From Gammaproteobacteria bacterium (lineage in GTDB: Bacteria > Pseudomonadota > Gammaproteobacteria > Ga0077536), in NCBI GenBank assembly GCA_016191285.1, contig JACPPA010000048.1, positions 1-47,454 of the forward strand: DNA of 47,454 nt, written 5' to 3'. Position 1 is the first letter of the stretch. Every line of letters starts with the position of its first letter. Of this stretch, positions 2,004 through 13,011 are shown piece after piece. The translations under genes and the position numbers were made by a program. Below the pieces are notes generated by a model. That model was given only the letters and a program-made list of their open reading frames with translations. It did not search any database and was not told the origin of the DNA.

Positions 2004-3677
2004 TTGATTCGATCGAGGTCGATTGTGCACGTCGCCCAAATGGAACGATTAATTCGCGCCTCCCGTAATGCCAGCAATGCGATCGATTCTTTTGGCGAAA
2101 AATTAGAAGATGCCGCTGCTGCAATCAAATACCTCGAAGGCGATTCCAAACAACTGAATGAGCGCAGCCGACAGTATTGGCGCGCTATCGCGGAGGGGCT
2201 TATCGTTCGGTACATTTGGAATGCAGACAAATGGCAGCCACGCGAGCCCCGGCTTAAGCTGATTAAGGACCTTGAAGGTCTATCTCGCGCCGCCACTGCG
2301 GAGCGGCTACGCGCATACAAATCGGTCACGATTGACGCATTTAAGGCCCTGTTATTAGACCTACCGGTTGGGCCAGCGCTTATTGCTGCCCTCCGTGATC
2401 TCAAACGCGATTCTGACTTAGGCCTTGAAGGGAAGCGCCAACGTCCTAGCACCAATGGCTTGGTCTTCGGTTTCGATAATCCAGTTAGCCTACTAGACGG
2501 GTATGAGACCAATTTGCATATGATGAAACGGTCGTTCGCGCACGCACGTTCGTCGACTGGATCAGCTCTGCTGAAGAGACAGCCGGTTAGGTGGCGCTTG
2601 AATGAGCCTGTGATTCAAGCATTTCTTCGTGCACGGCGTGTTGGCAACGATCGGGATTTCTCATTGCACGACATACGCGGCAGGTTGACGAAACGAAATC
2701 GAGACAACCTAGCACGCTGCGCAAAGCAAGCTGCACGCCTTGTCGAAATTAATTTCCATCTTACTGACCGACAGCGAAATCCTCAATTAAATGAAAGCTT
2801 AGAAAGTTGGCGACATGCATATCCCCTGTCCCGATTTGTGGTGAGCGTGTTCGAGGAGGTAGCTAAGTCGATGCATATCGATCTCATCGATGTAGAAGCT
2901 TCGACGCAGCGGAGACGTGATCGACTGACAAGAACCGTCATCGATGTTGCGCACGAAGGGATTAAGGCCGCCGTCCAAGTTGTCCGCAGCATTCCTGAGT
3001 TTGCGAACATAGACTTAGACGCCGGTGTGGCGTTGATGGCTATTAGTGACGAGGTACGCAAGGAGGAAAAACAGATCGCCAGAGAGTTGGGCCAAGCCCT
3101 CCACAATGTGAATGATACCTCTAAAGCGGTCAGAGAAACATGGGCGCGGACGGCAATAGTCGATCGTCTTTGGCAGCTGAGGCAGAGCATCATCACGTTG
3201 AAGGCGTATTGTGGATTCATGAACTGGTATATCGAACACGCTGAACGATCCGTAGCCAATGATCTTATTCCGAGTTTACGCTTGGTGCGTCGACATATTT
3301 GGTCCGGGTTGCTGGATTGGAGTAACGAACTGCAAGCAAGGTATTGGGATGGAATTCTGTTTACTCGCGATATGAAGGTACGAGCCAGCGGCTCACCGCT
3401 CAACATCCCGCGCATGCCAGCAGCGGTCGAAAAGGCGGCCATGACGGTGAGACCCTATCGACTTAACGCGGGTGTAGATGATCCGGGTCAGCAAGGAGAT
3501 GCGACGATAAAAAAGTATCCGAAAGCTCAAGCGCTACATCAAGGCGCAGTAGTACAGGAGGAAGTGCTCGACGCCATCGTATCAGCGTTGTGCCAAGATC
3601 AACCAGAGACACTGCGTGCTTGGAGGGAACTGACGCGGGCTATTCCTCCTCATCAATCTCGTCGAGATGCGTTCTGA
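2004..3677 (+). CDS. Large orphan protein of unknown function (557 aa)
   Basis: I do not recognise this gene. The predicted protein is soluble, strongly helical and rich in Arg, Glu and Ala, with no signal peptide, membrane segment or nucleotide-binding motif. A helical stretch near residues 330-420 (for example SDEVRKEEKQIARELGQALH) could be a coiled coil. The frame opens with TTG at 2004. An in-frame ATG at 2040 (MERLIRASRN) is the alternative, and neither has a clear Shine-Dalgarno. Base composition is visibly more AT-rich than the flanking transfer genes, which suggests separate acquisition. It ends just before the conserved leader of the ParA operon. Defence or maintenance cargo is possible but unsupported. 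Confidence 0.6.
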   Translation: MIRSRSIVHVAQMERLIRASRNASNAIDSFGEKLEDAAAAIKYLEGDSKQLNERSRQYWRAIAEGLIVRYIWNADKWQPREPRLKLIKDLEGLSRAATAERLRAYKSVTIDAFKALLLDLPVGPALIAALRDLKRDSDLGLEGKRQRPSTNGLVFGFDNPVSLLDGYETNLHMMKRSFAHARSSTGSALLKRQPVRWRLNEPVIQAFLRARRVGNDRDFSLHDIRGRLTKRNRDNLARCAKQAARLVEINFHLTDRQRNPQLNESLESWRHAYPLSRFVVSVFEEVAKSMHIDLIDVEASTQRRRDRLTRTVIDVAHEGIKAAVQVVRSIPEFANIDLDAGVALMAISDEVRKEEKQIARELGQALHNVNDTSKAVRETWARTAIVDRLWQLRQSIITLKAYCGFMNWYIEHAERSVANDLIPSLRLVRRHIWSGLLDWSNELQARYWDGILFTRDMKVRASGSPLNIPRMPAAVEKAAMTVRPYRLNAGVDDPGQQGDATIKKYPKAQALHQGAVVQEEVLDAIVSALCQDQPETLRAWRELTRAIPPHQSRRDAF

Positions 3678-3681
3678 ATAT

Positions 3682-3750
3682 TTTTTTGGTCATAATGTCT
3701 CAAGCCAGGCTTAACTGAGGGGGGTGCCCAGGGAGGCCTTTTGGATTTGG
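3682..3750 (+). promoter_or_regulatory. Conserved leader, copy A (upstream of the ParA-coupling protein operon)
   Basis: A T-run at 3681-3687 is followed about 20 nt later by GGCTTAACT, then a G6 tract, TGCCC, AGGG, a TTTTGGA block and TGG. The same order and spacing recur upstream of the relaxase gene (7270-7340), with roughly three quarters identity over the core. Two genes of the transfer module therefore share a cis element. It could be a promoter, a repressor site or a structured 5' UTR. It leads directly into a hairpin that covers the ribosome-binding site. Confidence 0.5.
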
Positions 3751-3788
3751 TCTTAACTCCGCTGCAACTACGCAGAGGAGTTAAGACC
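3749..3788 (+). promoter_or_regulatory. Perfect 12-bp stem over the Shine-Dalgarno of the ParA-like gene
   Basis: GGTCTTAACTCC (3749-3760) pairs perfectly with GGAGTTAAGACC (3777-3788) across a 16-nt loop. The right arm contains the GGAG Shine-Dalgarno (3777-3780), ten nucleotides before the ATG at 3791. In RNA the stem would hide the ribosome-binding site. In DNA it is a good dimeric operator overlapping the 5' UTR. The geometry is seen in the sequence; the regulatory effect is inferred. Confidence 0.6.
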
Positions 3789-3790
3789 TA

Positions 3791-4675
3791 ATGCCGGCCC
3801 AAACGAACACCGCGAAAAAATCCACCCAAAAGATCGACCAGCAACCCCGTTCCGAAGTACCGCCTCATTCGACCGCGGTGCATGTGCTTGGCCCAAAGGG
3901 CGGAATCGGAAAGTCGACCCTCTCTCGCCTCACCATCGACCTCTTCGATGCAAGCAGTCGGGCGGTCAAAATAGTTCAAGTAGACCGTGCACCGGCATTG
4001 CCGGCTATTTACCCAAATCGCACGGAAACCATCGACGTCCCGACGTCGCAGGCCATGCGCGAGGATCCGCTCGCCGCTATGCGCGCTTTCGAACCATGGG
4101 AAGCAATCGTTGAGACGATCGCGAACAAACCGGCAGGGCTCATCACCGACGTAGGCGGCGGCCCGAACGCTCGCGCTTTCATGGATTTCATCGCGCGAGC
4201 TCGGGTCGACGGCTTTCTCCAAGCGCGAGGTATCAGGGTCATCGCTTTCGTGCTGCTAACCCCTGACCCTGCCGTCATGGAACAGAGTGCCGATCTTGCC
4301 GCTGAGCTCACAAATATTCACCCGCATGCCGAAATCGTGGTTGTCTTTAATCAGCGCGACGGCGGATTCAAGTTCTACCCTGGCTCTCCGGCCGACAAAG
4401 TGTATCGGGCGCGAGTCGAGCCTCTGATCAAATCCCGGCGGCACCTCGTCATGCCGGCCATTGCCGCCGGCGCTTGGCCTGTGTTCGAGGCTGCTGGAAT
4501 GACCTTCCTTCAGGTAGCGATGGCGGATGAGAACGATCTCGTCGAAAAGCTCGGCCTTTCTCGCGCCATGGCCGCATCCTTGCAGGGGGATGTCTCGGCT
4601 TTCCTGGCCGTAATGTGGCCGCGGCTCGGTTCGCTCATCGGCTTTTCGATGGAGGCGCTAAATGGCAAAGCCTGA
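3791..4675 (+). CDS. ParA/MinD-like P-loop ATPase of the conjugation module
   Basis: The 294-residue protein has a deviant Walker A, KGGIGKST, at residues 36-43 and an ITDVGGG segment at 118-124 in place of a typical ParA switch. It thus belongs to the ParA/StbB-like ATPases that position or license plasmid DNA. A polar N-terminal tail of about 27 residues precedes the ATPase fold. It is the first gene of a three-gene operon, and the next start codon (4662) overlaps its stop by 14 nt. A ParA-like protein next to a coupling protein and MobF relaxase recalls stb-trw of R388, where StbB is ParA-like. That parallel comes from gene order only. No ParB partner or parS array is visible. Confidence 0.75.
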   Translation: MPAQTNTAKKSTQKIDQQPRSEVPPHSTAVHVLGPKGGIGKSTLSRLTIDLFDASSRAVKIVQVDRAPALPAIYPNRTETIDVPTSQAMREDPLAAMRAFEPWEAIVETIANKPAGLITDVGGGPNARAFMDFIARARVDGFLQARGIRVIAFVLLTPDPAVMEQSADLAAELTNIHPHAEIVVVFNQRDGGFKFYPGSPADKVYRARVEPLIKSRRHLVMPAIAAGAWPVFEAAGMTFLQVAMADENDLVEKLGLSRAMAASLQGDVSAFLAVMWPRLGSLIGFSMEALNGKA

Positions 4676-5252
4676 CAAACCACCAACAATTATGGTTCGG
4701 CTCAATCAAAATATTGCGCGTGGAAACTCCGCGCGCAAATTCTTAGCAGCGCGACTTGCAGAGCTGCCCGCAAAAGAAATCGCGAGAATACCTAGCGTCT
4801 TCTGGGCTCGCCTGGGTCCACGCGGTCTTGCGGCGATAGCGGAACACCTTGCTACGACAAAGGCGATCACGCCTGAAAGCACCCCTGCGCAGAAAGTGGA
4901 GGTTGTACCGCAGCCGCAAAATCCGTGGCCGTTGTGGGTGATTTCAGCCTGGCGAGCGGCTGTGGTGATTGTGGGCGCTTTACTTATCGGCGCCGCAGAG
5001 CGACCGATGTGGTGGGTTTTGAGTCAGAGCGCTGTGATCAACCGGGATGACCGCATGACATGCGGCCGTCTCGATGTTTGGGCCGATCACTGCACCTACT
5101 TGGCCCAAGAAAATAACCTGACTTTAGAACTAGCCTCGGAGCGCCTTGGCATAGATCCGAGCGCGTTGGCGGCAATCAATCCCGACCTACCGGTGAATGG
5201 AGCGCTCCCGCCCGGAGTCTCAATCCGAGTCATTAGAAACTCATGGAGGTAA
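4662..5252 (+). CDS. Single-pass membrane protein with a C-terminal LysM-like domain
   Basis: The 196-residue protein has a basic cytoplasmic-looking N-terminal half, one membrane span at about residues 92-113 (WVISAWRAAVVIVGALLIGA), and a periplasmic tail. The tail (about 134-191) reads like a LysM module, with YLAQENNLTLELASERLGI, an INPDLP turn and LPPGVSIRV. Cys134 and Cys144 could form a disulfide. LysM domains bind peptidoglycan, so it may anchor the transfer machinery at the cell wall or act as an accessory of the coupling protein. Its start overlaps the ParA-like gene and its stop overlaps the coupling-protein ribosome-binding site, implying tight translational coupling. The specific role is inferred. 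Confidence 0.65.
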   Translation: MAKPDKPPTIMVRLNQNIARGNSARKFLAARLAELPAKEIARIPSVFWARLGPRGLAAIAEHLATTKAITPESTPAQKVEVVPQPQNPWPLWVISAWRAAVVIVGALLIGAAERPMWWVLSQSAVINRDDRMTCGRLDVWADHCTYLAQENNLTLELASERLGIDPSALAAINPDLPVNGALPPGVSIRVIRNSWR

Positions 5253-5254
5253 TT

Positions 5255-7030
5255 GTGGCAAAAGCACTTCATCCGCTCGCCCTGCGAGTATCCCGAAAGC
5301 CGGCGATTCAGGCGAGTATGCCCGTCGCGATCTTGGCTAGCGTGGTGGCTTACGTCATTCTCTTTTGGCTGAATACCGCGACGCAATGGGACCCGTTTCA
5401 TAGTCAACCGGAACCCATGACGATCGTGAATTTGATCGCAATGCTTGGCTCGGCGTGGAGCGCGGCTTCGCCCGGATGGCTGATTGAGCATATCGCCGCC
5501 CGCGCCGATCATAATGTCTTCTTCGCAATGTGGAAATATTTCGGATTGCTATATGCGGCTCCGAAAACATTTACCACCGTATTGTGGATGCGTGTCGCAG
5601 ATGCAGATGTGCAATTTCAACTCTTGGTGCGTTTTATTAGTGTTGTGGGCACTGCCCTTGCGGCCGCCATGCCAGTCTACCGACACGTCTTGTCAAAGAC
5701 GCCAAAAACACGAAAAGCTAACTTGGTCGAAGGGCCGCGTACCTTGTGGTACAAGAAAGCAACCATTGCGGCCCGAAATTATTTGGCCGGTCTCACTGCC
5801 AATTTTGGCGAAGGTGTTGAACTCGCGCCTGGTTTGAGGTTGCCCCGTTCGGCCGAATACGAATCTTTCCTTGTGGTCGGCCTCCCAGGCTCCGGTAAGA
5901 CCGTGATCGCCGAGGGCGGACTTCGTCAAGCGATCGAGCGCGGTGAACGCGCAGCCTGCCTTGATGTAAAAGGAGGCCTCCTCAGCCGCATCTTACGATT
6001 TATGGGTGGAACGGGAGCGATGGCGATCGGAGTTGGTCGCAACGCCGCAGTATGGGCAATTGGAAAGGACGTAAGGTTGCGGTCACACGCGAGCGCGCTC
6101 GCTGCAATTCTGATTCCGGATTCGAAAGACCCTGTTTGGTCGGCCGCCGCCAGGCTGGTACTTGCTGCCGTAATGATGCGGCTCAACGAAAAATACGGTC
6201 AAAGGTGGGGATGGCGAGATCTCAAATCGTTTATTTCACGTCCCGTTGAGGAGATTTCCAAGGACATTCAATCGGTAAGGCCTGAAATTGCGCAAATGCT
6301 CCGGGGCAAGGGTGACGATCCGACAACGGCTATTCTGTCCGTAATGTTCAGCATGCTGACGCATATCAGCGAGATCGTCGATACGTTTTCTGCCATGGAA
6401 ACCGAAAACCGTCCAAGCCTCTCATTGACCCAGTGGGTCCAACAGAAGACAAAGTGTCGGGTGCTGGTCTTCCAACATGATTTGTCAAACCGCGATAACT
6501 CGCGTTCGGTACTTACCGCAATGATCCGCGTGACAGCGCGGGAGCTTCTCGGGCCAGGCATTGCCGAGAATTTCGATCACGGTATTTGGCTGTACCTCGA
6601 TGAATTTCCGAAGCTAGGCAAAAGGATAGAGGAATTGGCCGATTTGGCTGCGCTTGGTCGGGACCGAGGAATTCGAGTATTGGCGACTGCCCAGAGCCTT
6701 GCCCAGCTCAAGCAGGAGTACGGAGAGACCGGCGCAGAAGCACTCACCGAGAATTTTGGCATGGTCATTGTGTGCAAGGCTCGCCCAGGCCGCAATGCGA
6801 AGGATCTATCTGAAACAGTCCTCGATATTGCGACCTACGAAACTGATAAAGCCGGAACGAAGGGGGAGAAAGACCTCCACAAACTTCCTGCGCTCACGCC
6901 GCATCAAATTTCGACGGAACTTGGGCTCAAATTCGATTGGCGTAGCCGAAAACTAATTCGTGCGGCAGTTACCGGGCTGGACAACGTATATGTACTGGAG
7001 TGGCAGCTCGACCGCTGGAAGCGATTCTAA
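5255..7030 (+). CDS. Type IV coupling protein (VirD4/TraD/TrwB family)
   Basis: This hexameric ATPase family delivers relaxase-DNA complexes to the type IV secretion channel. From a GTG start the protein is 591 residues. Walker A GLPGSGKT is at 209-216 and Walker B IWLYLDEF ends with Asp449-Glu450. Two or three hydrophobic segments in the first 140 residues match the usual membrane domain. The sequence AALGRDRGIRVLATAQS is typical of the family. The GTG is preferred over the ATG at 5243 because GGAGGT (5245-5250) lies just upstream of it. That Shine-Dalgarno overlaps the preceding stop codon. No VirB/Trb channel genes are in the window. Confidence 0.88.
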   Translation: MAKALHPLALRVSRKPAIQASMPVAILASVVAYVILFWLNTATQWDPFHSQPEPMTIVNLIAMLGSAWSAASPGWLIEHIAARADHNVFFAMWKYFGLLYAAPKTFTTVLWMRVADADVQFQLLVRFISVVGTALAAAMPVYRHVLSKTPKTRKANLVEGPRTLWYKKATIAARNYLAGLTANFGEGVELAPGLRLPRSAEYESFLVVGLPGSGKTVIAEGGLRQAIERGERAACLDVKGGLLSRILRFMGGTGAMAIGVGRNAAVWAIGKDVRLRSHASALAAILIPDSKDPVWSAAARLVLAAVMMRLNEKYGQRWGWRDLKSFISRPVEEISKDIQSVRPEIAQMLRGKGDDPTTAILSVMFSMLTHISEIVDTFSAMETENRPSLSLTQWVQQKTKCRVLVFQHDLSNRDNSRSVLTAMIRVTARELLGPGIAENFDHGIWLYLDEFPKLGKRIEELADLAALGRDRGIRVLATAQSLAQLKQEYGETGAEALTENFGMVIVCKARPGRNAKDLSETVLDIATYETDKAGTKGEKDLHKLPALTPHQISTELGLKFDWRSRKLIRAAVTGLDNVYVLEWQLDRWKRF

Positions 7031-7166
7031 GTTTCCCGAATATTCAGATGTGCCCAGGATAATGGCGATCACTACCGCACGGGCTTCATGTCATCGCGCG
7101 GTCCCCACGCGTAGCGCACGATGACGCGCCAGCCCGCTGAGAAGGCCTTCCGCGCTGCAAGGTTCT

Positions 7167-7214
7167 GCACACGGCAATCGCGCGAGCGCTTGCGGTCGCG
7201 CGATTGCCGCGTGC
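7167..7214. other. Candidate oriT inverted repeat
   Basis: The 19-nt arms (7167-7185 and 7196-7214) are complementary except for one A:C mismatch, and enclose a 10-nt loop. The inner 14 bp (CGGCAATCGCGCGA and its complement) are perfect. Long inverted repeats beside a nic site are a hallmark of MobF origins of transfer, which normally lie next to the relaxase gene, as here. The nic site is not identified. A transcription terminator for the coupling-protein gene is the alternative, but no T-run follows and the distance to its stop codon is about 137 bp. Confidence 0.45.
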
Positions 7215-7269
7215 GATTCCCGGGGTGAGCAGACAGGTAGGGGCTGTGGTTAAAGTCGCAACCCAAAAC

Positions 7270-7340
7270 TATTTTTTCGTAAAGCAGATTTAGGCCGGCT
7301 TATCTCGGGGGGATACCCGGGGGTAAGTTTTTGGAGCTGG
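7270..7340 (+). promoter_or_regulatory. Conserved leader, copy B (upstream of the relaxase gene)
   Basis: A T-run (7272-7277) is followed about 19 nt later by GGCTTATCT, a G6 tract, ATACCC, GGGGG, a T5GGA block and TGG. It aligns nearly without gaps to 3682-3750. As with copy A, it is directly followed by a hairpin that masks a Shine-Dalgarno. The recurrence of leader plus hairpin before two separate transfer transcripts suggests common control. Confidence 0.5.
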
Positions 7341-7346
7341 CAGAGT

Positions 7347-7368
7347 CACCTGCACATGCAAGCAGGTG
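7347..7368 (+). promoter_or_regulatory. Hairpin over the relaxase ribosome-binding site
   Basis: CACCTGC (7347-7353) pairs perfectly with GCAGGTG (7362-7368) across an 8-nt loop. The right arm is the Shine-Dalgarno for an ATG at 7375, six nucleotides downstream. It also contains the alternative GTG start at 7366. Sequestration of the ribosome-binding site is predicted. A dimeric repressor site is the other reading. Confidence 0.5.
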
Positions 7369-7374
7369 GCTTAT

Positions 7375-9993
7375 ATGGTTGCGACAATCGCAGCTGGCAC
7401 AACGGCGCAGTACTACACGAAGCAGAGCGAGTACTATCTCGACGGACGTGAACCTGCGGGCCGTTGGATCTCGGCAACAAATAATTTCGGCGTCGCAAAC
7501 GGCACCATAATTGAGAGCGCGCTGTTCGAGCGCCTGCATGCCGGTGTTGATGCACATGGTGATACGCTTCTATCCAACACTGGCGATGTCGCCAAACGCG
7601 TGGCGGGCATCGATCTCACCCTTTCCGCTCCGAAATCAGTCTCAATTGCTTATGCGCTCGCCGACGACGAAACACGTCAAGCAATCGAATTAGCACAACG
7701 GCGTGCGGCTGAGGCCACGATTGCGTTTCTTGATAGACACGCGAGCTATTGTAGGCGCGGCAAGAACGGTCTCCGGCTGGAGCGCGTGTCCCTTACGATT
7801 GCTTCATTCCAACATGCCGAGGCCCGTCCCGTCGCCCACGCCGACGGTAAAGTATTTTCAGATCCAAATTTGCACACCCACAATGTGATTTTGAATTGTG
7901 CGGTTCGTGCCGACGGCACCATCGGCGCGCTCGACGCCCGCCATTTGTTTGCGAACAAAATGGCCGCTGGCGCCACGTATCATCTTGCGCTCGCATCCGG
8001 GCTGCAGCGGCTCGGATTCGAAATCGGAGAAATCGACAAAAACGGCATCTTTGAAATCGTTGGCGTGCCGCGCGAGCTGCGGGAGTATTTCTCGGCGCGG
8101 CGGCGCGAAGTCGAAGAGACAATTGCCCAGGAAGGCCTGACGACCGCCGCGGCGCCCAAACTGGCGGCGGCTATCGCGCTTGGCACACGCACATCCAAGC
8201 AAGAGGATGGGCCAGAAAACCGCTTTGCCTTGTGGGCCGAAGAGGCGACGCGGTTTATCGAAGTCGAGCGCTTTGTTGCTGGCCTTCAGACCTACCGTGA
8301 ACCTGACGCGATCGACCGGGAAAACGCCATCGCTGAACGTATCGCGGCGGTCCCGGCGCAACTAACTGAACATGAAAGCGTGTTCGAGAAACGGCACCTT
8401 TATGCGGCTGTGGCGACGGCGCTCGTCGGCACCGGCGCTGGCGCCGAGCGGGTCGATGTCGAGGCGGAACGTCTGATTGAGACTAGCGCCGTCATCGAGC
8501 TTGGTCGGAATGCTCTTGAGCAGCCGGTGTATTCGACCGCGGCGCAAATCGCCATCGAGCGTGATCTCGCTGCCATCACCAAACGGCTAAGTCATCAACG
8601 ACGTTCGGCACCGAATGCCGAACGCGTCCTGCAGCTGTGCCGTGCCCACGGCCTCACGCACGAACAGACGCAAGCTGCCCAAGCGGCGACCACCTCTGCT
8701 GCGATAGTGATCGTTCAAGGGGCGGCAGGTGCCGGCAAGACAACCATGTTGGCGCCGGTGGTTGCAGCCTATCGCGATACCGGCATGCGGGTGCGCGGCA
8801 CCGCGACGGCGTGGAAAATAGCTACCCAGCTCAGCGAGCTCGGCATCGAAGCCAAGGCAACAGACGCTTGGCTCGCCCAGGCTCGTCATGGCGGAGATTT
8901 CCTCGATCGCAATACAGTTTTGGTGGTCGACGAGGCAGGCCTGCTCTCGTCGCGCCAGATGCATGCTCTGCTCTCGGAAGCAGAGCGTTGCGGCGCAAAG
9001 GTGATTTTGACCGGTGATTCACGCCAATTGCAGGCGGTCGGGTCCGGCCCCGGTTTTACCATCGTTGCCAGCATCGCCGATCCCACCCGTGTCGATACCA
9101 TCGTGCGCCAACGCGACGTTTGGGCGCGCGAAGCCATTACCGATTTTGCTAACGGCCGCTCCGCCGACGGTCTTAAGGCCTTTGCCGATCATGGGCTCCT
9201 GACGCTCCAAACCGGCGAAAAAGCCACCATCAAGCGTCTGGTCGATGGCTGGGCGGAAACGCAAAAGACCCCTTCCAAGACATCAGCCCTTCTCATCGCC
9301 AAGACCAATGCCCAGGTCCGGGCGCTGAATGATGAAGTCCGCATACGGCTGAAGCAGGCCGGTCAGATTCGCGGCCCCGAAATCGCCGTCGCCGCCGTCA
9401 CGCCGTCGGGGCATGGACAAACACTGCAGTTCGCGAGGGGTGACCAGATCCGGTTTCTGGTTCGCCAGGATCGCCTTGGCGTCATCAACGGGACCACCGG
9501 CACCGTCACGCAGATCAATCGTCGCAATGCTGACAATCCGATCATCAGCGCCGCTATCGGTGAGCGGCACGTCACCTTCAGGGTGTCCGACCTTGCCGAC
9601 GAGCATGGCCGCGCGCGGCTCGGCCATGCCTACGCCACCACAATCTATGGCTGCCAAGGCCTGACGACGGATCAAGCCTTCGTCCTGCTCGATTCTTCGA
9701 TGAATCGACACGACATTTATGTCTCGTCGAGTCGCGCCAGGGACAGGGCCGAGCTGTGTGCCGACAGCCGTGCTCTCGATGCGCGTATCCGTTTGGATTT
9801 GCCGCTGTCGCAACGGCGGACTGCGGCCATTGATGTGGACACGCGCTTGGCCTGGCTCGCCGCCCGGCTGAGCCGCGCGCACGTCAAAAGCTGCACGCTG
9901 GACCCGACCCTCACTGCTCTCGAACAGTCCCGCCCGCTGACGCGGCGACAGTCACGTTCGCAGCGCGATTCAAGGGAGATATCCCTTGAATAG
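7375..9993 (+). CDS. MobF-family conjugative relaxase-helicase (TrwC/TraI-like)
   Basis: It nicks oriT, stays covalently bound to the 5' end and unwinds the transferred strand. From the ATG at 7375 it is 872 residues. The N-terminal relaxase domain carries the paired tyrosines Y13/Y14 and Y20/Y21 and the metal-binding His motif LHTHN at 166-170. The RecD-like helicase has Walker A GAAGAGKT (449-456), Walker B VVDEAGL with Asp519-Glu520, a TGDSRQLQAVG motif III and the C-terminal YATTIYGCQGLT (about 753-764). A GTG at 7366 is possible, but the Shine-Dalgarno GCAGGTG fits the ATG better. TrwC is 966 residues, so this is slightly short but has all key motifs and looks functional. The next gene overlaps its stop codon. 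Confidence 0.93.
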   Translation: MVATIAAGTTAQYYTKQSEYYLDGREPAGRWISATNNFGVANGTIIESALFERLHAGVDAHGDTLLSNTGDVAKRVAGIDLTLSAPKSVSIAYALADDETRQAIELAQRRAAEATIAFLDRHASYCRRGKNGLRLERVSLTIASFQHAEARPVAHADGKVFSDPNLHTHNVILNCAVRADGTIGALDARHLFANKMAAGATYHLALASGLQRLGFEIGEIDKNGIFEIVGVPRELREYFSARRREVEETIAQEGLTTAAAPKLAAAIALGTRTSKQEDGPENRFALWAEEATRFIEVERFVAGLQTYREPDAIDRENAIAERIAAVPAQLTEHESVFEKRHLYAAVATALVGTGAGAERVDVEAERLIETSAVIELGRNALEQPVYSTAAQIAIERDLAAITKRLSHQRRSAPNAERVLQLCRAHGLTHEQTQAAQAATTSAAIVIVQGAAGAGKTTMLAPVVAAYRDTGMRVRGTATAWKIATQLSELGIEAKATDAWLAQARHGGDFLDRNTVLVVDEAGLLSSRQMHALLSEAERCGAKVILTGDSRQLQAVGSGPGFTIVASIADPTRVDTIVRQRDVWAREAITDFANGRSADGLKAFADHGLLTLQTGEKATIKRLVDGWAETQKTPSKTSALLIAKTNAQVRALNDEVRIRLKQAGQIRGPEIAVAAVTPSGHGQTLQFARGDQIRFLVRQDRLGVINGTTGTVTQINRRNADNPIISAAIGERHVTFRVSDLADEHGRARLGHAYATTIYGCQGLTTDQAFVLLDSSMNRHDIYVSSSRARDRAELCADSRALDARIRLDLPLSQRRTAAIDVDTRLAWLAARLSRAHVKSCTLDPTLTALEQSRPLTRRQSRSQRDSREISLE

Positions 9994-11416: not shown

Positions 11417-12211
11417 CTATCTGGGCAATAGGGCGATGAGGCGCAATGAAACCGCCCGGGCAGCATCGGCGATGTCCCAGCCATATCCGGGCGCGAGTAA
11501 GGGACCGATGTCGGCGGTAAATTGTGGATCGTGAAGCTTTGAGGTGAGATTCTGCTCAAATAGCTCACGTGTAACGACATGACCGCCATGTTCCATATAT
11601 TCGGAGAACGCAGCGATGATGCGGCCTGAGTCAACCGCAGGATTTTTCAGCGCGATCGCAAGGTCAAACAGGTCTCTACCCTTCTTGCGCTGATACAGGG
11701 CGCGCATTTTCGTGCTTAAAAGTTCGTCAAGCTCATAGCTCGTAATCTGACAGGAGCCTTCGAACCAGCGTGACGAAACCGCGAAAGGAACACTGGTGAA
11801 TCCATGGACTGAAAAATGCTCGCGTGAATTGATTTCGACTTTAAGGCGCAGCCTTGTCGGCGGCGTGTCTTCGGAGTCAAAGCGATAGACGAATGTAACG
11901 CGGCCCTCGGTCTGTTTCCAACGCGGCACGCCCAGCCAGGGATCGAGAATGGCACGCAGGGCTTGCATCATCGGGCCTGCCGGCCCGGGCTTGACCTGTA
12001 CAAGGTCGATATCTTCGGAATAACGGGCAGCAGTTTTGAGATGAAGCTTGTACAAGGCTGTGCCGCCGCGGAACGCGAGCGCGTCTTTCAGAATCGGCTC
12101 AGAGAAGATATCGACCAGTGCCCGGCAGATGACGAGGTCCTGTTCGACCTGAATATCCTGCACCCACGGCGCGTGCCGGCGCCATTCCGTGATGTAATCG
12201 CGTGGAATCAT
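11417..12211 (-). CDS. abiEii: AbiEii-type nucleotidyltransferase toxin (type IV TA)
   Basis: AbiEii toxins are DNA polymerase-beta-fold nucleotidyltransferases that block growth, for abortive phage infection or element maintenance. From the ATG at 12211 the protein is 264 residues. It shows motif I GGTAL (49-53) with RYSEDID (63-69), motif II KVEIN (124-128), and motifs III/IV in KMRALYQRKKGRDLFDL (168-184). All known catalytic motifs are intact. The start codon overlaps the abiEi stop as ATGA, so production of the toxin is coupled to its antitoxin. An upstream in-frame start at 12250 has no support. Confidence 0.9.
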   Translation of the reverse strand: MIPRDYITEWRRHAPWVQDIQVEQDLVICRALVDIFSEPILKDALAFRGGTALYKLHLKTAARYSEDIDLVQVKPGPAGPMMQALRAILDPWLGVPRWKQTEGRVTFVYRFDSEDTPPTRLRLKVEINSREHFSVHGFTSVPFAVSSRWFEGSCQITSYELDELLSTKMRALYQRKKGRDLFDLAIALKNPAVDSGRIIAAFSEYMEHGGHVVTRELFEQNLTSKLHDPQFTADIGPLLAPGYGWDIADAARAVSLRLIALLPR

Positions 12212-13011
12212 ATTTCCGCCTCCACATCCACATTGACGTGGAGATTCCAACCATCGTCACGCCGAGAATCTACGCGCGGTGCGCTCGGCAAAAGGACGGT
12301 CGCTAGTCTTGCGTGTTCGCGCACATAAACTTTGAGCGCTGAAGCTTTTTGGCCGGCGTCGATATGTTCAAGTAAATAGCCAAGCCGCTGTGCCCACGGA
12401 ATAGGTGCGGTCGCTGCGGCTGCCGCGAGTTTTTCTGGATCGATTTTCTCGACAAGCTCCGAAAGGATCGTCGCCACCTGATCGAGGCCACCGGCGTGAT
12501 GCTGGTAGCCGACAAGATCGATTGCCGTTGCTTCGGGCGTTGAGACTAAGATCGTGCCGCGCGGCGTATTGAAGCTCTGGACCGGAACGTCGGCGATGCG
12601 CTTGCGGGCCATGAACGCAACACGCACCGCGCCGCACTGGATGGGCCTGCGGTTCTTGGCAAGGAAGACCTGAAATTCCTGCGGGCGGTGATGCGCCGCA
12701 CCGTGATATTGGGCCGCCGAAAGAAGACCTGCGTAATAGGTCAGACCAAGGCTCTTCATCAGGGCCGGGATGAACTGGTCGGCGGGAAGGCAGCCGAGGC
12801 TGTGGTATTCCGGCGGGACAATGACGTAGAATCCCCGTGCCGGGCTCGCGATACCGCCCTGCTTCGTCATGCGATTCAGGGCAAGCTTGGCGGCGGCAGG
12901 CGACACGCCTAACGCGGACCGAGCGTCCCGCGAAGCAAAGAAATAGCGCCCCCCGGCGGCTAGGCCAGAGACGAAGTTCCTGATATTTGGCTGCGGTTTC
13001 GTATTTTTCAC
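12208..13011 (-). CDS. abiEi: AbiEi-type antitoxin / transcriptional repressor (type IV TA)
   Basis: AbiEi antitoxins neutralise AbiEii without forming a complex and repress their own promoter through an N-terminal winged helix. This 267-residue protein has the expected basic N-terminal helix-turn-helix (ALGVSPAAAKLALNRMTKQG, about 34-53). It also has the central family region with GRLADQF-like and AAQYHGAAHHRPQEFQVF segments and TPEATAIDLVGY. The frame opens with GTG at 13011. No Shine-Dalgarno is visible, because an inverted repeat ends 2 nt upstream of the start. It is the first gene of the bicistronic operon with abiEii. Confidence 0.87.
   Translation of the reverse strand: MKNTKPQPNIRNFVSGLAAGGRYFFASRDARSALGVSPAAAKLALNRMTKQGGIASPARGFYVIVPPEYHSLGCLPADQFIPALMKSLGLTYYAGLLSAAQYHGAAHHRPQEFQVFLAKNRRPIQCGAVRVAFMARKRIADVPVQSFNTPRGTILVSTPEATAIDLVGYQHHAGGLDQVATILSELVEKIDPEKLAAAAATAPIPWAQRLGYLLEHIDAGQKASALKVYVREHARLATVLLPSAPRVDSRRDDGWNLHVNVDVEAEI

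Follow-up and report, generated by a model that had tools for sequence, protein, structure and literature searches.

Shared upstream core sites and Shine-Dalgarno-pairing hairpins at the relaxase and ParA operons of MobF elements suggest a small transfer regulon

Introduction

In IncP plasmids, repeated sites lie near the partition and transfer genes and are served by one trans factor, KorB. In NAH7, ParB activates the transfer genes from parS repeats that lie near both transfer and partition genes (PMC12421886). In R388, StbA represses several promoters, as does KorA (PMC3937220), and the StbA-StbB pair has been compared with the TraK-TraL pair (PMC3098194). Control at the level of translation is described for the gonococcal genetic island, where a stem-loop over the Shine-Dalgarno (SD) sequence of parA cuts protein output and traH has another stem-loop (PMC8716806).

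The locus analyzed here resembles R388, with its StbA/stbDR and KorA systems, in having a MobF relaxase and a ParA-like ATPase (StbB in R388) with a candidate for its DNA-binding partner, and in the idea that one plasmid-encoded repressor controls several promoters for maintenance and transfer (PMC3098194, PMC3937220). As those papers describe R388, its stbDRs are 9-bp direct repeats that recur upstream of stb, and TrwA is limited to its own promoter, whereas here each promoter has one lineage-specific core, sometimes two, the relaxase is included, and SD hairpins are present. The repeated sites beside partition and transfer genes, with one presumed trans factor, recall NAH7 ParB and parS (PMC12421886); unlike in NAH7 and the IncP plasmids, the locus yielded no homologue of ParB or KorB. 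The likeness to the gonococcal island is an SD-hiding stem-loop on the mRNA of a transfer-linked parA (PMC8716806). That case, as described there, concerns two stem-loops ahead of parA in one element, whereas here there is mostly a single hairpin at each of two operons; the hairpin recurs widely across a MobF clade and is linked to the upstream site that the operons share. A search of the open-licence full-text literature gave no paper on such leaders or elements among the matches listed. Compared with these systems, the one described below appears to combine known ideas, a plasmid regulon site and an SD-occluding hairpin.

Results and Discussion

The transfer region and its genes

The stretch of DNA analyzed (47,454 nt, hereafter the window) belongs to a genome of 5.1 Mb. 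The genes of the transfer region lie on the forward strand, the first being a DUF3987 protein gene (104-1468, assigned with Pfam), whose 5' end is shorter than in its relatives. Two 21-nt direct repeats (88-108 and 113-133) stand at the start of this ORF, within the first 133 nt of the window; the repeats suggest an insertion or rearrangement. There follow a gene for a 136-aa HTH-like protein (1545-1955) and a 557-aa ORF, orf557 (2004-3677), whose similarity to the pMaqPC3 protein at the equivalent place was not significant.

The next gene encodes a ParA/TraL-like ATPase (3791-4675), recognized from its homologues, to which it is 23-56% identical, and from the TraL model; it has the Walker motif GPKGGIGKST, and its match to NCBIfam TraL PRK13886 is weak (E 3.2e-4, 20.1 bits against a cut-off of 360). 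Behind it lie a gene for a 196-aa protein (4662-5252) with a membrane stretch as judged by eye, presumably co-transcribed given its position, and a TrwB-like coupling protein gene (5243-7030; Pfam TrwB_AAD_bind, E 3.9e-43). The 196-aa protein had nothing above the cut-off in Pfam. The MobF (TrwC) relaxase-helicase gene (7375-9993; Pfam TrwC, E 5e-65) starts at ATG 7375 (MVATIAAGT) and not at GTG 7366 of the ORF list, as judged from alignment to two Methylobacterium relaxases. The interval between the coupling protein and relaxase genes contains an inverted repeat (7167-7214; 23-nt arms, 91% complementary, a 2-nt gap and no T-run after it), which is a candidate oriT or terminator. An AbiEi antitoxin-like gene on the reverse strand (12208-13011; Pfam, E 5e-54) lies 3' of the transfer genes, adjoined by a 277-aa ORF (11417-12250).

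A 26-nt core precedes both operons

The upstream regions of the ParA-coupling protein operon and of the relaxase share a 26-nt core, GGCTTANCTNNGGGGGNTNCCCNGGG, which matched without mismatch at 3708-3733 and at 7297-7322. With up to three mismatches allowed, no third copy turned up in the 47-kb window or across the 5.1-Mb genome, and 100 shuffles gave no match. Because the degenerate core pattern was derived from these same two copies, the local similarity of the two upstream regions (-140 to -28) was also set against that of 2000 windows drawn at random from this contig, which is the fairer test; it was higher than expected (p = 0.0045). The preliminary description had proposed a leader common to the two operons, and the core and this comparison bear it out. 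Its wording that the leaders align almost without gaps is right for the core; the whole leaders (131 and 121 nt) align with gaps, at 60 identical columns of 136. The T-runs and the TTTTGGA it had listed are indeed in the sequence, the T-runs at 3681-3687 ahead of core copy 1 and at 7272-7277 ahead of copy 2, and some but not all of the related copies have a T-run. An Rfam scan of the window gave no family at the gathering score, and a relaxed threshold added only far lower-scoring matches.

The core is conserved in related elements

Related loci, given here by number, were collected by scanning genome contigs with an alignment of three relaxases, which yielded 28 loci, and from plasmid records and whole genomes; distant coupling-protein matches (L005-L012) and the plasmid loci L020 and L021 were left aside. 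Other searches added little: two BLASTN searches of plasmids with the leaders gave two chance-level matches and none, respectively, single-protein searches at family, order and class level returned just the window itself or distant matches, a phylum-level sample gave one more, weak ParA match, and the viral contigs searched gave nothing.

We call an element W-type if it carries the ParA/196-aa/coupling-protein set of the window. This set was found in L048 (Bradyrhizobium in8p8), L050 (Devosia), L066/L089 (Afipia birgiae), L072 and L073, and in L074 as far as its contig extends; the 196-aa protein itself is kept in L048, L050, L066, L072, L073 and L074. A third Bradyrhizobium record, L082, covers the ParA side only, and L052 matches L048 exactly across the compared relaxase leader. 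The relaxase of Bradyrhizobium in8p8 lies in two overlapping frames (9001-11695 in L048, 1142-3836 in L052).

The core stands ahead of both operons in the window, L048, L050 and L066, and in a diverged form at both operons in L072 and L073 and at ParA in L074. The Afipia cores upstream of relaxase and ParA are CTTATCTCGGGGAGGTGCCCGGTAAG and CTTATCCCGGGATGCTACCCGGTAAG, that of L072 is GTGGGGGGTCACGGGACCNATCGGT at both operons, and that of L074 upstream of ParA is GAGGGGTTGCCGGACC. The preliminary description had looked to related elements for conservation of the leader, and for the core it is found there at both operons. The W-type elements carry one site at several operons, in two to four core copies each: Afipia has four, of which the extra two precede the DUF3987 gene and a 188/203-aa ORF (L089), and L072 and L073 have three each, the third preceding DUF3987. 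In the window, the 103 nt ahead of the DUF3987 ORF contain no core, at the place where these relatives have a copy. When the W-type core was scanned with one mismatch allowed, a single match fell outside the W-type loci, in L035.

Other lineages have motifs of their own

Similarity between the relaxase and ParA upstream regions was then measured without selecting a motif, in 25 elements of the relaxase clade (the first 23, with L039, p = 0.007, and L069, p = 0.026, added); loci having one gene only, such as L068, L074 and L082, were outside this test. In 20 of the 25, the two regions were alike beyond random windows of their own locus at p<0.05, and in 15 at p<0.01. Significant sharing was absent in the other five (L033, L049, L067, L085 and L024). 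Similarity was higher within elements than between lineages (p = 2e-12, 23 elements), a value which, like the others, is overstated in that the elements are not independent, L072/L073 and the TTTGG lineage being related.

The motifs differ among lineages. The motif TTTGGNNNCCAAA is found in L030 and L035, with one mismatch in L031 and less exactly in L051, and in L030 and L035 this palindrome occurs twice at the relaxase and once at ParA; TTGGNNNCCAA of L037 resembles it. The motif of L070 and L088 is CATTCATTTCC, that of L069 and L085 CAGAATCCA, that of L087 GAGCAATTTCACCTTC, and that of L040, whose compared relaxase stretch is identical in L043 and L086, GAAATAACCGCCTC. L039 has the palindrome TATTTCAGSCTGAAAT, and pMaqPC3 has three copies of AATCAGGTTTTCATTC. 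Where sharing was significant, the end of the motif lies 28-58 nt from the relaxase start codon and 49-74 nt from that of ParA, except for the L087 ParA, where the distance is 107 nt and the start uncertain.

Two side observations concern these loci. Further TTTGGNNNCCAAA sites stand ahead of small ORFs (L035 2393-2439 and 3801-3847; L031 5547), which encode 76 aa in L035 and L031 and 109/129 aa in L035; the 76-aa ORFs resemble each other and could belong to the regulon. The circular record of pMaqPC3 (NZ_CP043630.1) contains a long gene block twice with the same protein accessions, possibly an assembly duplication.

The core as a probable DNA site

The core could act as RNA. If it lay in the 5' leader of both mRNAs, a protein or small RNA bound there could open or close the SD hairpin. 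The orientation of the core is constant and its distances to the starts are similar, as such a switch would have it, and the relaxase leader of the window (7285-7340) folds well (z -3.2). If a hairpin is drawn through the core, 79% of cells are paired, and a shift by one column lowers this to 50-57%; however, 122 of 500 shuffles do as well, and a DNA dyad would fit the pairing equally. The other leaders argue against a structured RNA: the window ParA leader (z -0.9) and the four core copies of L048 and L050 (z -0.9 to +0.6) fold no better than shuffles, and across eight W-type copies the core contained no base pair in which both partners had changed.

The surroundings of the core also speak against its acting as RNA. 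Four of the six W-type elements (L048, L066, L072 and L073) have an intrinsic terminator whose end lies 67-96 nt 5' of the relaxase start. By subtraction, terminator and core are only 14-19 nt apart there, which hardly leaves space for a promoter between them. No such upstream terminator was found in the window or in L050. Against a DNA site, and as an RNA switch would allow, no sigma-70-like promoter was found near either window copy or near the L048 and L066 relaxase copies, and 36 upstream regions showed no AT peak after the core, so that the promoter was not located. The W-type core, too, is palindromic only in part. Cores of some other lineages are palindromes, and those of the TTTGG lineage are palindromic and doubled, which is typical of operators. 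We consider the RNA switch unlikely, with perhaps one chance in a handful of being right.

Attenuation, in which the core hairpin is itself an intrinsic terminator under antitermination control, seems to us very improbable. The relaxase copy of the window does look terminator-like, with a stem at 7303-7322 followed by GTAAGTTTTT, but a single match of this kind is near chance (0.5 expected), and at least four consecutive T residues soon after the core occur in just 3 of 12 W-type copies.

We lean towards the reading, drawn from these sequence comparisons, that the core is an element-specific cis site acting as DNA, as a promoter or operator. The preliminary description had suggested a common switch for DNA transfer, worked by an RNA-binding protein, an antisense RNA or a DNA-binding repressor. 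The shared site at several transfer genes agrees with a common switch; a structured RNA leader fits poorly with the lack of covariation in the core, the upstream terminators and the palindromic cores, and of the three agents a DNA-binding regulator is favoured.

SD hairpins in the window and across the relaxase clade

Each core in the window is followed by a hairpin over the SD sequence. Hairpin 1 (3749-3788) has a 12-bp stem (3749-3760 with 3777-3788) and four inner pairs, with the SD, AGGAG, at 3776-3780 and the ATG at 3791; its fold z is -7.1 and the mean probability that the SD pairs with upstream sequence is 0.80. Hairpin 2 (7343-7372; arms 7343-7353 and 7362-7372) has seven perfect pairs (7347-7353 with 7362-7368) within an 11-bp stem containing two G-U pairs, with the SD, AGGTG, at 7364-7368 (fold z -2.7, mean SD pairing probability 1.00). 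Stems of 12 and 7 bp with the SD in the right arm, different yet analogous at the two operons, were what the preliminary description had reported, and both were recovered, the second being part of the longer stem.

A hairpin, counted when a stem over the SD region scored at least 15, was present at 35 of 38 relaxases (31 of 34, and all four of the added L024, L039, L069 and L085), compared with 17 of 68 control genes from the same loci, whose starts were chosen automatically. The three relaxases with no SD hairpin are those of L033, L072 and L073. The hairpins at ParA are less regular and by stem score exceed the controls only slightly (12 of 26 against the same 17 of 68, p = 0.04; the L085 ParA row, with its wrong start, carries no information), and all seven scored W-type ParA genes (window, L048, L050, L066, L072, L073 and L074) reach at least 16. 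Mean SD pairing exceeded 0.8 in 25 of 30 relaxases, 11 of 24 ParA genes and 7 of 62 controls, and the median was 0.80 for ParA and 0.59 for controls; relaxases having no recognizable SD (L033, L072, L073) give no value in this measure, and for the L050 relaxase the wrong SD was taken.

The hairpins vary in sequence while keeping their pairing. Among 34 relaxase hairpin rows there are 30 distinct left arms. For 25 of these 34, the three pairs that border the GAG-core SD exceeded shuffles (p = 0.0035, 0.0010 and 0.0005), and pairs outside the SD core occur as up to five standard pair types; this set leaves out the three rows lacking a hairpin, the window, L048, L050 and L066, which have other SD types, and L046 and L049, which were removed by hand. 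Of the last two, the L046 hairpin breaks at +3, and that of L049 pairs at +3 to +5. Compensatory changes in the stems, for which the preliminary description had advised looking, are thus present outside the SD at the relaxase hairpins. The SD-pairing hairpin is conserved with covariation at the relaxases, and more weakly at ParA.

Hairpins and terminators could also serve merely to insulate. The core would then be a plain, unregulated promoter, and the SD hairpin and terminator would shield relaxase and ParA from read-through. Protection against read-through is known from IS10. The terminators of L048, L066, L072 and L073 do lie between the coupling-protein gene and the relaxase, and the hairpins lie immediately 5' of the start. 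However, an ordinary promoter would not match within elements and yet differ sharply among lineages, nor would it be palindromic or doubled, and we regard this explanation as improbable.

The core and hairpin appear to follow the backbone

The relaxase of the window is 84-85% identical to that of L038, and in the relaxase tree, which excludes L048 on account of its two-frame relaxase, it groups with eight relaxases at 100/100 support. With three mismatches allowed, the core is missing from the 150 nt upstream of all eight; W-type cores precede relaxases of other clades. The SD hairpin of the window (AGGTG, 6 nt before the ATG) is of the L048/L066 kind and not of the L038 kind (GGAGGT). Since the clade of the window relaxase lacks the core and the hairpin is of the L048/L066 kind, we infer that core and hairpin remain attached to the ParA/coupling-protein backbone and that the relaxase gene has been exchanged near its start codon. 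This distribution also bears on whether the core is part of oriT and bound by the relaxase. The core does adjoin the relaxase gene, but the relaxases nearest to that of the window (62-85% identical) lack it while distant ones have it, and an element carries two to four copies, so that we hold out scarcely any chance for this assignment.

A bolder reading, which we find possible but on balance doubtful, is that an element-specific site, acting at the transcription or RNA level, and the SD hairpin form a portable cassette that remains part of the ParA/coupling-protein backbone and captures whichever relaxase gene lands behind it. If so, each lineage would have a specificity code of its own, like an incompatibility group for transfer control.

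A proposed two-layer control and its candidate reader

The explanation that we favour as a whole, with moderate confidence, is a small regulon built on the element-specific core and read by a protein of the element, with the SD hairpin as a second lock. An element-encoded DNA-binding protein would bind the core as a promoter or operator, and this would switch the relaxase together with the ParA-coupling protein operon and also, in relatives, with the DUF3987 gene. On each mRNA, the SD-occluding hairpin, whose conservation is observed, would lower translation in cis, and as a second lock it would curb expression of the DNA-nicking relaxase, both basal and from read-through. Judged from sequence, the core and the SD hairpin probably keep transfer of these elements of soil bacteria off until it is wanted.

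Two control layers would in this way be tied to a DNA-nicking relaxase. For a group of MobF elements whose hosts include rhizobia, Afipia, Devosia, Methylobacterium and relatives, the proposal predicts the core regulon genes; the lineage-specific sites would allow one to predict which elements cross-regulate in one cell.

The best candidate for the reader of the core, offered as a lead, is the 136-aa protein (1545-1955), because its gene lies upstream of the ParA/TraL-like gene, as in the StbA-StbB and TraK-TraL pairs. It had no family match above cut-off, HTH_23 falling under it (E 0.046), and its structure model had no match among solved structures at E<0.001. The N-terminal part of the model is helical and of good confidence, and homologues of the protein were found in 10 of the 17 other loci compared and in pMaqPC3.
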